From: Sialis fuliginosa
Lineage: Eukaryota > Arthropoda > Insecta > Megaloptera > Sialidae
Direction of reading: 5' to 3'
DNA: 64,000 nt
Assembly: GCA_961205875.1 (NCBI GenBank)
Contig: OY540812.1
Location: 30,079,098-30,143,097, forward strand
Shown: positions 9,699 through 43,829 of the stretch, piece after piece
Layout of the letters: every line of letters starts with the position of its first letter
How positions within the stretch are numbered: position 1 is the stretch's first letter
Made by a program: the position numbers and the translations under genes
Notes under the pieces: model-generated
Seen by the model: only the letters and a program-made list of their open reading frames with translations
Database searches by the model: none
What the model was told of the DNA's origin: nothing

Positions 9699-10100
9699 CT
9701 AAAAGAGCTTATCTCGCTTCAATGATTCTGACCAATCAACTGTAAGGTCTAGAAGGACTGAAGCTGGGATAGGTCCGTTTCCACTATTAAAAATCCTAGT
9801 CTTATCCCTCAAGATTTCTAAGCTTTCTGCTGCGTCCAATTGATTATTATTACTGCATGTTTTAATTAGTTTTAAATTACTTATATCTGTTGTGTGATTT
9901 AATGTAGTCATATGATGAGCTACGCTGAATTTATCAACCGGGTTGTATTTTAGGTGAGCCATGTGCTCTTTAAATCTAATGTTTATTGATTTCCTAGTTT
10001 GTCCTATGTAACTTATATCGCAATTTAAGCAGTTTATTTCATAAATACCCGATTTTGCATTTAATTCTGTTTTATCTTTGGAGTTACCTAGAAGAAACAT
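9699..10100 (-). pseudogene. Penelope-like retroelement: C-terminal GIY-YIG endonuclease fragment
   Basis: The 133-codon frame carries SGIYEI (residues about 17-22) and SYIGQT (about 30-35), the two signature strands of the GIY-YIG nuclease, followed by R (about 41) and FKEHMAHL (about 43-50) and an HH pair near residue 62. This arrangement is typical of the endonuclease at the C terminus of Penelope-like reverse transcriptases, where it nicks target DNA for insertion. The two cysteines before YIG (C24, C27) fit the CxxC preceding the motif in this group. Upstream, at 10100, the coding sequence stops abruptly and an unrelated repeat (family Y/W) begins, so the reverse transcriptase is missing and the copy is 5'-truncated. 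The N-terminal Met is arbitrary. Confidence 0.85.
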
Positions 10101-10250
10101 CTGCCAAATGACTACATAGTGCTTTCTCGTGCTAAATTCATCGAATAATTTTAATAAATACCGAAAAATATTAATTCTAAATTTTTCTTAATATGTACCT
10201 GATTATTCTTTTCTAAATTTAAATATTTTTGCTATACCTACATACGTCAA
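10095..10250 (-). repeat. Dispersed family Y fragment
   Basis: Contains CATCTGCCAA..GTGCTTTCTCGTGCTAAATTCA and a TTTTTCTTAATATGTACCTGATTATT stretch (in pieces) matching, inverted, the tail of the copy at 59380-59570 and, same way round, 55260-55450. It abuts the truncated Penelope-like element. Confidence 0.6.
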
Positions 10251-37005: not shown

Positions 37006-37845
37006 GGCCAAGTGCGTGTTGGGTACGCATATGATAGGGTTCCGTAGTCATTCTCACTACGATTTATAAAAAAGTTATTCCAAAATGTTTCAAAAAATTT
37101 TTTTTGACAGTGTTCGTTATAATTTCCAGTGAAAGTACTAATTAAAAGTTACATTCTGATTTTTTGCATCGATAGTTTAGAAATTAGAGAGGAGGACGCT
37201 TTGATAACGACATTTAAAAGTAAATATATCGTGACTGAAGGGTTAAAATCAAAATGTCGTTTAACACTTTTTGTTGAATTTTAGGGGACCTATCTAAAGA
37301 CACCCTACACTTAATGGATTATGTGAATTTTTTTTAAATATAATTTTCAGTCTGTGGAAAGAGGGTCCAAATTTTTTTTTTCAGATTTTAGTCATAGGAG
37401 AGGTGGTCCAAAAAAATGTTGACAGTGTCTATTATAATTTTCAGTGAAAGTACTAATTAAAAGCTACATTTTTAAATTTTTTCAGATTTTTTATATTAAT
37501 AGTTTAGAAAATAGAGGGGGGACTCTCTGATAACGACTTTGAACGCAAATATATCGTGAATGAAAGGTTGAATTCAAAAAGGTCATATAACATTTTTTAT
37601 TGCATTTTAGGAGACCTATCTAAAGACACCCTACTTAATTGATTAAGTTAACTTTTTTAATATACTTTTCAGTCTATAGAAAGGGGATTCAAAAAAAATT
37701 TTTTTTTCAAAAATCTTATCATTTCTGTTTTTGGGTTATCAGTCTTCCTCCGTATACCAAATTTCATCTTAATCGGTATAAAATTTTTGAGGATGGACGG
37801 ACATAGCGAAACTATAAGGGTTCCTAGTTTTCTAATCGATTAAAC
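37006..37845 (+). mobile_element. Dispersed family X element, copy 3
   Basis: Starts GGCCAAGTGCGTGTTGGGTA, followed by GATAGGGTTCCGTAGTCATT, and ends in GACGGACATAGCGAAACTATA. It contains repeats of about 280 bp marked by ATAGTTTAGAAA..GATAACGAC..GACCTATCTAAAGACACCC. This is the fullest of the three copies. Confidence 0.7.
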
Positions 37846-39440: not shown

Positions 39441-39568
39441 GAGTTAACATGTTCTATTTTTACAAAACAATGAAATTGGTGTAAAGTACTGACACCAGTC
39501 TTGGACAATGCCCCAGTGTTGGATACTGATTTAATTAAATGTACTAAATTATAAATATTTGTTGATAT

Positions 39569-39905
39569 TGTTGTGAACCGCACGCGTTGTATAGCCACGC
39601 GCTTGGATTATTGGCAAGTCATTTCCACAATGACAATTTGTTTCCCAAGCGCGTGTAAAAACGAATACTTTGCATAAATGTCGGCTATATAACGGTGCAT
39701 GAAAATATGACAAATCAGTGATCTTGGAAGGAATTATTGATCTACGTCTGTATATTTTAATCAAATAAAGTAAGGGTATTTAAAATTAAATTTGTTATAT
39801 CTATTTTTGCACCTTTTCTACATCATCAAGCTCCCTGGCCAACGTAGACACCGTAACTCACACCAGAGTATTAAGTTGTTGATTTTAGGCAACTAGGTCG
39901 CAACA
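39569..39905 (+). mobile_element. 5' long terminal repeat
   Basis: 337 bp, beginning TGTTGTGAACCG and ending TCGCAACA, so the ends form the short inverse TGTTG/CAACA. By eye it is identical to the repeat at 42517-42853. TATATAA at 39686-39692 and AATAAA at 39764-39769 are a plausible promoter and polyadenylation signal. The preceding ATAT repeats after the 3' LTR, giving a 4-bp target duplication as in Ty3/Gypsy elements. Confidence 0.92.
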
Positions 39906-39923: not shown

Positions 39924-40069
39924 TGAAAAGGGTTTGTGAATCAAACTCGAGTGCAAGTAGAGAAAAGCAAGTTTTTTTTTGAAGACTCTGAAGAAAGAAG
40001 AATCCTGCCAAAGAAGACAGAAGTGCACAAGTAAGTGTAATCCCAAATCACTCCTTATTATCATATCCC

Positions 40070-42313
40070 ATGGTGATAAGTACCCGGAACACTCCGAGAG
40101 AAAGCCTGCCTGGTGACCAGCCTGAAGAATCTAACCAGTCTGAGGAACCTGCAGAGATAGAAGAAAACAACATGAGTAAAATAAGCCTGGAACTAGCCAG
40201 CAGAATTATTCCTGAATTTGATGGGACGACCGACGAACTCGACAGATTTTTAAGTGCTTGCGACGTCTGCTTCAATGGGATTGAGGTAGGACAGATACCA
40301 ATCTTATTTGAAATAGTAAAAGGCAAATTGAATAAAGAAACGTATAGTTCAATACAACATCGACAAATTACTGGATGGACCGAATTGAAATCACATTTAC
40401 AATCTCATTTTATGGATCGGAGAAATTTAACCCATCTACAATCCGAATTCGTCAACACGCGGCAAGGAAGAAACGAAAGCGTCTCTCAGTATGTTCAGCG
40501 CCTAGAAAAGACGGTCAACGCCTTAAGAAACATTTCCACAGCCGGAAAATCGGGCACGGGTGTGACTGCAATTAATGACTTAATTGCGTCACAGGCACTA
40601 AACGTTTTTTTAGAGGGTCTACAACAACCTCTAAAATTAATGGTAAAGGCTCGAGGACACAACTCTATCGATGAAGCGATTTCCACAGCCCTAGCCGAGG
40701 AGGAATCAGTTAAGAGAGATCAGAGACCACAGCAAGATTTCCGTATTGACTATAGCGCTTCAAAATCCGTTCGTCTCGCTCGAAACGTACGATGTAGTTA
40801 TTGTAATAAGTTTGGGCACTATGAGAGAGAATGCAGAAAGAAAAGAAGAGAAATACGAGTTCCAAAAAATTATCCTGCAACGAGTACAACCAAGGTGAAG
40901 GATCTAAAATGTTACACAATTGCACATAAAGAAGACTACGACAGAGTTGAAATAAAAATGAGAGAGATGGAAACAGGAACAGCATTATTGTTCTTGGATT
41001 CGGGTGCCGACGTCAGCATTATGAAAATTTCTGACCTCGACAACAATACAGAGCTATGCACGAAAGAAAATTTAATCTTGAAAGGGATAGCCAAGGAAAA
41101 AATCAAGACACTAGGACGATTTTACGCCCACATGAAAATCGGAGATACAGAACTCATACATCCTTTCTATGTAGTGAGTCATGATTTTCCACTCGCGTGT
41201 CAAGGCATATTAGGGCGAGATTTTTTCAATAAATATGGTGTGGTTATCAACTACAAGAAACATGTATTGGAAGTCGAAAGTGAAGACATCAAATTACGAT
41301 TACCAGAACGTGCATTGCCCCCGAAAAGCGAAGTGCTGGTATCAGCATTCACGAGTTCTACATGTGAAGGTGTGTGTGAAACACGAGAACTCACACAAGA
41401 TGTATTTGTCGGCAGATGTAACAGAAACGCCCTAATGAAGAAATCCCTTACTACGGAAAAATGTAATAAGGAAGTAGAAGCCGCATTATTAGAAATATGC
41501 GAAGAATACAACGATATTTTTGTTCTGGAAGAAGATTCGCCGAGTTTTGCGGAGAATGTGACACACACAATAACACTCAAGGATGGAGCGTCATTTTTAA
41601 ACGTCAACCCTTATCGGATACCAGAGGCCCATAAGGACGAAATCAACAAGCAATTAAAGGATACGCAGAAACAATCAGGGAAGCCGGATACAAATACAGA
41701 CGTACTCAGCAGAAGGTACATGCTAGATACAGAAAAATTTAATTGTCAGCACAAATCAGCTGATCAAGCAACCTGTAATGTTATTGCAGAAGTGAGAGGT
41801 TCTCTAAAAGAAAGAGATAGCGAGGCGGTCGCGTGCTGTGTGTCGCGCGACGTATCAGATTTCAAAATATGCAGTAAGGTCGTACAAAAACTGCAGAATC
41901 AGGATGTTGGTTCCGTATGTACAGTAAGCAAAGGCGGCAAGAATATATTTTATTTGATATCCAGGAAGAAGAAAACGGATATGGGACAGCCGCAGATACT
42001 GCTTAAATGTTTTCAAGTGTTAAGAGAACTCGTAACAAGGAATAAAATAAACAAATTATGTATGTCTAAACCAAATCTATTAGACAATAATTTAAATTGG
42101 CACGAAATAAAGAAAATGTTGTGCTACGTATTTAAGGAAACAGAAGTGAATTTACTCATTCATGATGACGAACACTTCAGAAATTCTTTCGAAGGAACTC
42201 AAGGACCAGCACCGATACCAAGGATATGGAGATGGACGGTCGGGACTATGCTACGTGCGACGAAACAATCCGCACCAATACAACTAAATCCCTGCCAAGT
42301 TTTGGAGGCTTAG
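40070..42313 (+). CDS. Gag-protease polyprotein of Ty3/Gypsy-type element, pol core deleted
   Basis: One open frame of 747 codons; Met35 is an alternative start, since Gag-like sequence begins there. Residues about 35-230 are a retrotransposon Gag domain (RIIPEFDGTTDELDRFL at 45-61). Residues 242-255 form a CCHC zinc knuckle (C242, C245, H250, C255). Residues about 300-390 are an aspartic protease with the catalytic DSGA at 310-313 and ILGRDF at 380-385. Residues about 470-529 resemble the linker and N-terminal edge of reverse transcriptase (NPYRIPEAHKDEI). Then, after a junction near 530-537, TNTDVLSRR is the usual last motif of RNase H. All polymerase motifs, the RNase H active site and the integrase core are missing, yet the frame stays open. 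Residues about 584-698 resemble a macrodomain. The last 40 residues (FEGTQGP..PRIW) may be a remnant of the integrase zinc-binding motif. The product should form particles and self-process but cannot copy itself. Confidence 0.85.
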   Translation: MVISTRNTPRESLPGDQPEESNQSEEPAEIEENNMSKISLELASRIIPEFDGTTDELDRFLSACDVCFNGIEVGQIPILFEIVKGKLNKETYSSIQHRQITGWTELKSHLQSHFMDRRNLTHLQSEFVNTRQGRNESVSQYVQRLEKTVNALRNISTAGKSGTGVTAINDLIASQALNVFLEGLQQPLKLMVKARGHNSIDEAISTALAEEESVKRDQRPQQDFRIDYSASKSVRLARNVRCSYCNKFGHYERECRKKRREIRVPKNYPATSTTKVKDLKCYTIAHKEDYDRVEIKMREMETGTALLFLDSGADVSIMKISDLDNNTELCTKENLILKGIAKEKIKTLGRFYAHMKIGDTELIHPFYVVSHDFPLACQGILGRDFFNKYGVVINYKKHVLEVESEDIKLRLPERALPPKSEVLVSAFTSSTCEGVCETRELTQDVFVGRCNRNALMKKSLTTEKCNKEVEAALLEICEEYNDIFVLEEDSPSFAENVTHTITLKDGASFLNVNPYRIPEAHKDEINKQLKDTQKQSGKPDTNTDVLSRRYMLDTEKFNCQHKSADQATCNVIAEVRGSLKERDSEAVACCVSRDVSDFKICSKVVQKLQNQDVGSVCTVSKGGKNIFYLISRKKKTDMGQPQILLKCFQVLRELVTRNKINKLCMSKPNLLDNNLNWHEIKKMLCYVFKETEVNLLIHDDEHFRNSFEGTQGPAPIPRIWRWTVGTMLRATKQSAPIQLNPCQVLEA
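41819..42163 (+). other. Macrodomain-like segment (TARG1/OARD1 type) within the polyprotein
   Basis: Residues about 584-698 follow the order of the small TARG1/OARD1 macrodomain family, which binds ADP-ribose and removes it from proteins. Visible landmarks are AVACCVSRDVSD (586-597, in place of the first strand and loop), a variant of the F-KK/LQ helix at 598-609, VGSVCTVSKGGKNIFYLISR (613-632) for the central hairpin, a helix LLKCFQVLRELV (644-655), MSKPNLLDNNLNW (665-677) for the ligand loop, and IKKMLCYVF (680-688) before the last strand. Judged from what I know of the family, the catalytic Lys after YLI is Arg632 and the catalytic Asp of the GCGLD loop is replaced by Asn673 with the glycines lost; a neighbouring Asp672 exists. 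The fold may persist with ADP-ribose hydrolysis lost. It is placed where Gypsy elements have the RNase H-integrase connection. Confidence 0.6.
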
Positions 42314-42503: not shown

Positions 42504-42514
42504 AAGGGGGGAGG
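42504..42514 (+). other. Polypurine tract
   Basis: AAGGGGGGAGG ends two bases before the 3' LTR, the expected place for the plus-strand primer of an LTR retrotransposon. Confidence 0.8.
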
Positions 42515-42516
42515 TA

Positions 42517-42853
42517 TGTTGTGAACCGCACGCGTTGTATAGCCACGCGCTTGGATTATTGGCAAGTCATTTCCACAATGACAATTTGTTTCCCAAGCGC
42601 GTGTAAAAACGAATACTTTGCATAAATGTCGGCTATATAACGGTGCATGAAAATATGACAAATCAGTGATCTTGGAAGGAATTATTGATCTACGTCTGTA
42701 TATTTTAATCAAATAAAGTAAGGGTATTTAAAATTAAATTTGTTATATCTATTTTTGCACCTTTTCTACATCATCAAGCTCCCTGGCCAACGTAGACACC
42801 GTAACTCACACCAGAGTATTAAGTTGTTGATTTTAGGCAACTAGGTCGCAACA
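42517..42853 (+). mobile_element. 3' long terminal repeat
   Basis: Same 337 bp as the 5' LTR with no difference seen, followed by ATAT (42854-42857), the second copy of the target duplication. TATATAA is at 42634-42640 and AATAAA at 42712-42717. Identical LTRs imply a recent insertion. Confidence 0.92.
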
Positions 42854-43221
42854 ATATTTGATAACTGCCGTTACTGAATCATAATCTATAGACACTTAAC
42901 TGTAAAACAGCTTAATTTGATGACAAATCGGCCAACGAGTATCGAATTATTAGTGTAATCTATTTATTAATAATTATTATATTATATTTAAAAAATTTCG
43001 ATTCTTTATTTTATAACTTTTGTATCCTAGTACCTATCATTTTGTAATCATTAGCAAGTGTCCATCACTGGGTGCACATTACTGATTTTGCTTTGTCCAT
43101 TACTGGAGAAATAAAACAAGAGGTACTTGTTTTATTAGTAACATGAGTTCATGCGAATTACAAAAAGAAGTCCATCAATTCCAAAATATACCCTACTTTT
43201 AAAGCGACCAAGACTGGTGCC

Positions 43222-43342
43222 AGTACCTTATGTGTATGCAAGTAGCAGATTGAGTGATTTTATTCTGTAGGCTTTCGTGGCGGTTGTCCATATAAATTTG
43301 TTTTCTGGACTTGTCGAATTCCTTTTTTTGACATTTTGACTC
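43222..43342. other. Short unassigned stretch
   Basis: Sequence between the TA-MITE and the next MITE; nothing recognised. Confidence 0.35.
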
Positions 43343-43345
43343 TTA

Positions 43346-43458
43346 GAGCCCGTTCACACGCAGTGGCAATACATTTCATATAAGAGTGTTCACACGATAC
43401 ACGGCCGACCATATACAGCAGTCGACTGTGTGCATTACGACGCCGTGTGAACGGGCTC
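43346..43458. mobile_element. 113-bp Harbinger-like MITE
   Basis: GAGCCCGTTCACACG and CGTGTGAACGGGCTC are perfect inverse ends bordered by TTA on both sides (43343-43345, 43459-43461). A three-base TTA duplication and GT(T)CACAC-type ends fit PIF/Harbinger. The interior is relatively GC-rich (ACGGCCGACC, CGACGCCG). Confidence 0.75.
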
Positions 43459-43461
43459 TTA

Positions 43462-43829
43462 GGCTAGATTCTTTTTTAGATTTGTTTCTGAAAAGAGTAG
43501 ATTGGGAAACATATTTTAAGAAGGTCGTAACATGAGAATCTGAAAATCAAAAAAGGAAATTTGACAACTTGAAACCAAGATTTTTTTAGTTGTAGGGAAT
43601 TTATTATTTTAAAAATCAGGAAAATAAATATAACAACCCCAAAAATTGTCTCATAGTTTTTATTGAACAAAATATGTACAATAGTTTTCTAAATGATAGC
43701 ATAATGCTTCCCCGTGATAAATTCTGCAAATAGAGATATCTTCGTATATAAGCCATTCAAACTTTTTTTTATAGAAAATGACATTTAATCAATTAACGAT
43801 TTTATTTTATTTTAGGAAGTAAATGGAGA
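43462..43829. other. AT-rich stretch, nothing recognised
   Basis: The 64-codon minus-strand frame here shows no domain. Confidence 0.35.

Follow-up and report, generated by a model that had tools for sequence, protein, structure and literature searches.

A predicted TARG1/OARD1-type macrodomain in the polyproteins of several related Gypsy retrotransposon families of Sialis fuliginosa

The DNA analysed here, a stretch of 64,000 nucleotides from the megalopteran insect Sialis fuliginosa (assembly GCA_961205875.1, contig OY540812.1, positions 30,079,098 to 30,143,097 of the forward strand; hereafter the window), contains a short Gypsy-type long terminal repeat (LTR) retrotransposon, and the 3' third of its open frame is confirmed, by sequence comparison and predicted fold, as a macrodomain of TARG1/OARD1 type. 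In the 392-Mb assembly as a whole, the loci compared show such a domain, placed between RNase H and integrase, as a regular component of a number of related Gypsy families. The explanation that we favour, and consider reasonably probable, is an old acquisition by an errantivirus-like lineage, in which the domain would probably still be a hydrolase in one branch and non-catalytic in the window copy. An earlier note on this DNA, made from the sequence alone, had described the macrodomain in a single polyprotein copy; the domain is indeed there, and the claim now extends to several Gypsy families, one of them with its pocket motifs kept.

The family assignment, also proposed in the earlier note, is borne out by two kinds of sequence comparison. 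A search of PDB sequences with the window domain returned five matches at E<=1, all of them TARG1 (best 1.8e-6), and a profile built from 37 OARD1 proteins, aligned anew with the window sequence left out, matched frame residues 592-723 over profile positions 7-148 of 151. The 37 rows had been collected by a query that included the window sequence, and every one of them has an OARD1-type name or a Macro match. Among 2083 six-frame pieces of the window the profile detected only this frame (41.8 bits, E 1e-11; next piece, 7.8 bits), and the domain itself, at 20-27% identity to OARD1, scored 46.2 bits against 12.4 for the best of 5000 shuffled sequences and 3.2 for the reversed one. Chance similarity to OARD1 was considered and ruled out by the shuffles. 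The match covers window 41765-42160 and thus starts 54 nt further upstream than the segment first proposed (41819-42163). An alignment-driven AlphaFold2 (AF2) model, with OARD1 rows in its alignment, reached a pLDDT of 82; its top eight Foldseek matches in the PDB were TARG1 entries (TM score on the query, TMq, 0.75-0.79) in this structural comparison, which the note had suggested.

General domain collections were of less help. Pfam-A gave no Macro match for the window domain even at E<=10; this miss is uninformative, because a 103-residue fragment of human TARG1 itself reached only 22.7 bits in Pfam against a cut-off of 22. NCBIfam and PHROGs contained no match for the window domain, and among viral contigs no confirmed relatives were found of the window domain, of a gag-protease part or of the L013 domain discussed below. 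In a protein database search that requires shared five-residue words, and so does not show absence elsewhere, none of 22 candidates of similar length matched the domain plus tail at E<=0.01 and none of 87 candidates of about 577-1836 residues matched it at E<=10.

The genome was searched both with the window domain (18 places at E<=0.001) and with coelacanth OARD1 (P0017; 35 places at E<=0.01), and a part of the places listed was examined individually. The matches include intron-bearing host-type OARD1 loci, such as C14:8128488-8129171 (48-50% identity), and members of Gypsy families that we designate A (L013, L014, L015), B (L017, L020), C (L018, L019, L021), D (L022, L023, L024, with L028 close to them) and W, the window family (L001-L006 and a broken copy, L007). 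When 12 Gypsy macrodomain frames (L006, L013, L014, L015, L017, L018, L020, L021, L022, L023, L024 and L028) were scanned with Pfam, all 12 contained reverse transcriptase (RT), RNase H and/or integrase and none a Macro match; two host-type OARD1 stretches gave one Macro match and none, respectively, and a genome-wide Macro search marked seven places, none coinciding with a Gypsy macrodomain. Because Pfam passes over these domains in all the frames scanned and at the Gypsy places of the genome search, Gypsy macrodomains have probably been overlooked in other genomes. Eleven distinct loci encode both RNase H and H2C2 in a single frame, and in all of them the macrodomain lies between the two, in a spacer of 176-303 residues, in agreement with the position downstream of RNase H first proposed; in L017 the RNase H lies in a neighbouring frame. 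Ten of the 150 H2C2 places scored, out of 524 candidates, adjoin a macrodomain place, by a reading of two tables. L023 (C9:3083717-3087016), whose 908-residue frame comprises gag zinc finger, macrodomain and integrase without RT or RNase H, is a second deletion derivative that retained the macrodomain. The longest spacer, 303 residues, belongs to family A, where about 140 residues past the macrodomain (L013 residues 642-780; frame L013:193-3423, minus strand) have no Pfam match. A second host-type OARD1, L009 (C2:2872471-2872968), has a first exon that ends an open frame of at least 483 residues without Pfam match; it may be a fusion, a duplicate or a copy next to a transposable element.

The families differ in what they have kept of the ADP-ribose pocket. 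In TARG1, Lys84 and Asp125 are catalytic, and the motifs considered here line the pocket; 31 motif columns at least 90% conserved in OARD1 were set against 36 other conserved columns. The window copy keeps 8 of the 31 and 12 of the 36, with no bias (p 0.60). Its MGAGIA glycine loop is a gap, KPTY has become MGQP, IGCGLD is replaced, and Lys84 and Asp125 align with Arg (R632) and Asn (N673; numbering from the ATG at 40070), as the earlier note had it for the loop and both residues. Because the catalytic pair is replaced, the window domain appears as a divergent relative of TARG1, not a TARG1 enzyme, and because the pocket motifs are gone an ADP-ribose-dependent role of this copy, such as the interference with PARP-linked defence or DNA-damage signalling suggested in the note, is unlikely. 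Both Lys84 and Asp125 are present in three of eight Gypsy rows (L013, L017 and L020). In L013, of family A, 21 of the 31 motif columns are kept against 15 of the 36 others (Fisher p 0.049), a bias that points to a kept pocket; since loop, Lys and Asp are all present, family A would be likely to cleave ADP-ribose.

Three of the family comparisons show clear constraint on the macrodomain; in W it is borderline and in C it is not seen. The ratio of nonsynonymous to synonymous differences per site (pN/pS) was 0.09 in family A (L013/L015; bootstrap 0-0.45), 0.20 in B (L017/L020; 0.13-0.29) and 0.35 in D (L022/L028; 0.25-0.48), with silent sites near saturation in B and D.

The window element itself is an LTR retrotransposon of 3.3 kb, bounded by a 337-nt LTR pair that is 100% identical and equipped with a target-site duplication and a polypurine tract (Table 1); the point at which the alignments to L002 and L007 stop backs the LTR end, as do matches of the LTR at other genomic loci. 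Beyond Gag and protease, a Pfam scan of its frame gave no convincing match to RT, RNase H, integrase or env, so this copy has neither the Gypsy/Ty3 order protease-RT-RNase H-integrase, which its relatives show as RT-RNase H-(macrodomain)-integrase, nor, in that scan, the env gene of an errantivirus-like element. Alignment with L006, the long relative described below, accounts for the loss: window 41419-41674 corresponds to L006 3385-3130 (86%) and window 41673-42174 to L006 1991-1490 (95%), with about 1140 nt of L006, from RT to RNase H, missing at 41673/41674, and where the similarity stops, at 42174, the L006 frame continues with H2C2 and rve. The window copy is thus an internal-deletion derivative related to a longer family member. 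Divergence from L006 is 14% before the first junction and 5% after it, and these unequal block identities suggest that the window or L006 is a mosaic.

Searches with the gag-protease part brought up one long relative and five nearly identical short copies, among them the one in the window; the macrodomain is present in all six. In the short copies the LTR starts lie 2947-2949 nt apart; in the long relative the LTRs, 99% alike to that of the window, span 9.1 kb. Multiple LTR-flanked copies thus share one deletion structure, that of a non-autonomous element, as had been supposed for this copy, and the long relative is of the full-length kind that the note proposed to look for: between its LTRs lie gag-protease, RNase H-macrodomain-integrase and, directly after the integrase, a 618-residue env frame (L059:1967-3823, minus strand; C14:1980866-1982722) matching Baculo_F at E 2.2e-53 and solved fusion proteins at E 1.3e-33. 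The env of errantiviruses is of Baculo_F type, and because such a frame follows the integrase in the long relative, the parent of the window copy is errantivirus-like. From the identical LTRs and the missing RT and integrase, the likeliest course is that long relatives supplied RT and integrase in trans for the spread of the short copies.

Table 1. Features of the window element (window positions; residues are those of the open frame)
Feature	Position	Strand	Remarks
Target-site duplication ATAT, left	39565..39568	.	adjoins identical LTRs
5' LTR, TGTTG...CAACA, 337 nt	39569..39905	+	identical to 3' LTR
Open frame gag-protease-macrodomain	39992..42313	+	773 codons stop to stop, first ATG 40070
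Gag PF03732	40340..40624	+	residues 117-211, E 1.1e-8
CCHC zinc knuckle	40790..40840	+	PF00098 14.4 bits, under curated cut-off 20.8; CCHC spacing visible
Retroviral-type aspartic protease PF00077	40952..41248	+	residues 321-419, E 7.8e-5
Left deletion junction	41673..41674	+	RT start fused to RNase H end, frame kept
TARG1/OARD1-type macrodomain, pocket motifs lost	41765..42160	+	from sequence, profile and predicted fold
Right deletion junction	42174..42175	+	integrase of long relative gone from here; L006 similarity ends 42174
C-terminal tail of frame past junction	42175..42313	+	no family match
Polypurine tract adjoining 3' LTR	42504..42516	+	by eye
3' LTR	42517..42853	+	identical to 5' LTR
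Target-site duplication ATAT, right	42854..42857	.	adjoins identical LTRs

In the explanation that we favour, a host OARD1 copy would have been captured once by the ancestor of an errantivirus-like Gypsy lineage. In the branch of L013, L014 and L015 the domain probably still binds and hydrolyses ADP-ribose, as TARG1 does, and may act on the RNA or the cDNA/DNA ends of the element, or on Gag/Pol, undoing host ADP-ribosylation. According to PMC8053099, TARG1 binds RNA oligomers and takes mono-ADP-ribose off acidic residues as well as off the terminal phosphates of DNA and RNA. In the window branch catalysis, and probably ADP-ribose binding, would have been lost, and the folded domain, if functional at all, might serve Gag-Pol as a module for contacts with nucleic acid or protein. 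A more specific version can be offered only tentatively: an ancestral TARG1-type hydrolase in Pol, next to the integrase, may have served to clear ADP-ribose off Gag/Pol or off the ends of the element's cDNA or RNA, keeping host ADP-ribosylation from blocking reverse transcription or integration, later families losing the pocket and reusing the fold structurally or for nucleic-acid binding.

The observations gathered in this paragraph and the next bear on parts of this account, some in its favour and some against it. As regards identity, the window sequence alone in AF2 gave a pLDDT of 46.5, the good model (TM 0.79) being the one that used OARD1 rows. A reader might suppose that the segment is an ordinary Gypsy connection or spacer region, as the absence of Macro matches in the Pfam scans of the window domain and of the Gypsy frames would allow; we give this next to no credence, since Pfam barely detects human TARG1 either and the PDB matches, the OARD1 profile, the predicted fold and a spacer control are all contrary. 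In that control the RNase H-H2C2 spacer was 83-99 residues long in 20 of 20 other Gypsy loci, with no macrodomain signal (best -1.1 bits), although these loci are the 20 best H2C2 matches from 150 scored out of 524 candidates and no random draw, several coming from one family, and they stand for about six spacer groups, not for 20 independent families. The ordinary connection region, named in the note as the finding that would overturn its claim, was ruled out on the strength of the profile match and the macrodomain-free control spacers. As regards origin, a tree of RNase H and integrase put six macrodomain rows on one side of a branch and eight others on the other side (support 100/99), the eight outgroup rows amounting to about four or five families; in this tree L053 is only 37% filled, L013 sits on a long branch and L017 was left out, its RNase H being in another frame. 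When the tree is built from the macrodomain only, the Gypsy copies do not come out as one group: the window pair, at the end of a branch 2.5 changes per site long, joins vertebrate OARD1 with weak support, and L013 also stands apart from the rest, as would be expected if each of several Gypsy families had taken up its own OARD1 copy at one and the same position. Such repeated capture nevertheless seems improbable to us, since the domain sits between RNase H and H2C2 in every family tested, the backbone forms a single clade and long branches make the domain tree unreliable; a single Gypsy origin is, for its part, not rejected by the approximately unbiased (AU) test (p 0.34).

The main rival of the favoured explanation concerns the fate of the domain in family W, where it might be a dead passenger, left in frame by the chance of internal deletions and now drifting. 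The near-complete loss of pocket motifs and the replaced Lys and Asp fit this, as does a stop inside the macrodomain of the further copy L007; the short copies are young, with little time for decay, and two pairs of short window-type copies, each differing within the domain by 2 replacement changes and 0 silent ones, show no constraint. Nor do two family C pairs, each with 1 silent and 3 replacement changes (dN/dS 0.72). Against drift, the window and L006 differ by relatively fewer amino-acid than silent changes, with a pN/pS of 0.29 (bootstrap 0.08-0.82; p 0.039) that is borderline and rests on about 14 changes; slightly other borders gave 5 silent and 7 replacement changes and a dN/dS of 0.34. 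A frame still open at 20-27% identity to OARD1 is likewise not expected under unconstrained drift: in selection-free simulations of 2000 frames none stayed open at 1.1 hits per site; at 0.55 hits 4 did, and at 0.3 hits 19. Both arguments concern the long parent rather than the short copies. We regard the passenger as unlikely on balance, if a serious contender. A contact role is not helped much by charge: the +9 of the window domain fits nucleic-acid contact weakly, because host OARD1 has +8 and other Gypsy macrodomains lie near neutral (-2 to +1). That the window domain itself actively binds or removes ADP-ribose and so counters host PARP signalling, a possibility raised in the earlier note, appears very improbable; the TARG1 homology and predicted fold speak for it, and PMC12632316 reports that viral macrodomains with catalytic mutations can retain ADP-ribose binding, but here the glycine loop is deleted, KPTY and IGCGLD are replaced along with Lys84 and Asp125, and 8 of 31 columns remain.

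The window domain resembles TARG1 (also OARD1 or C6orf130) in its near full-length profile match, predicted fold and order of strands and helices, and differs from it in its low identity, its fusion to a Gypsy polyprotein and the loss of glycine loop, Lys84, KPTY and Asp125; the two catalytic residues recur in the related Gypsy families of L013 and of L017/L020. Compared with errantivirus-like Metaviridae, the long relative is alike in having, between LTRs, gag-protease, RNase H and integrase together with an env frame of Baculo_F type, and it differs by the macrodomain that follows RNase H and precedes integrase; the window copy differs in being without RT, RNase H, integrase and env. Some arthropod Gypsy polyproteins may carry OARD1-like stretches. 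Among the literature matches listed, none mentions in title or abstract a TARG1-type domain of Gypsy elements, or such a domain lodged in Pol between RNase H and integrase; the uptake of ADP-ribose-related domains by retroelements has precedent. Fish epsilon-like endogenous retroviruses have macro-domain open frames (Basta et al. 2009, as cited in PMC4977317) and are likewise retroelements with an acquired macrodomain; they are vertebrate Retroviridae whose macro-domain frames are described as additional ones, whereas here the domain belongs, in frame, to the pol of a Gypsy lineage. Gypsy elements of Ectocarpus, according to PMC12477816, contain a NADAR (NAD/ADP-ribose) domain at the Pol N terminus, for which the authors suggest a possible horizontal transfer, its matches being almost all bacterial; they are similar in having a conserved ADP-ribose-related enzyme domain in Pol, but the domain family, its place in Pol and the host, a brown alga, are different. 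In a BFVD search the window model resembled proteins of insect-associated viruses, Frankliniella flavi-like virus (TMq 0.76) and VP8 of Kadipiro virus (TMq 0.78), which are alike in predicted structure but RNA viruses; no named retroelement was among the 50 BFVD matches listed, many of them nameless.

With these comparisons, ADP-ribose signalling becomes a candidate field of conflict between Gypsy retroelements and their hosts. Within one genome, the families also grade naturally from domains that keep the motifs to domains that have lost them, and these could be assayed side by side.

Elsewhere in the window, a fragment at 9702-10187 (minus strand) resembles a GIY-YIG endonuclease (PF01541, 20.3 bits, just under the cut-off of 22.6) and may stem from a Penelope-like element. 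A unit of about 320 nt occurs in two adjoining copies at 37104-37722, with matching pieces 74-85% alike. Downstream of the retrotransposon, a 32-nt inverted repeat (43342-43373 and 43431-43462, 81% complementary) that holds GAGCCCGTTCACACG delimits a unit of about 120 nt in total, which looks like a small non-autonomous DNA element.

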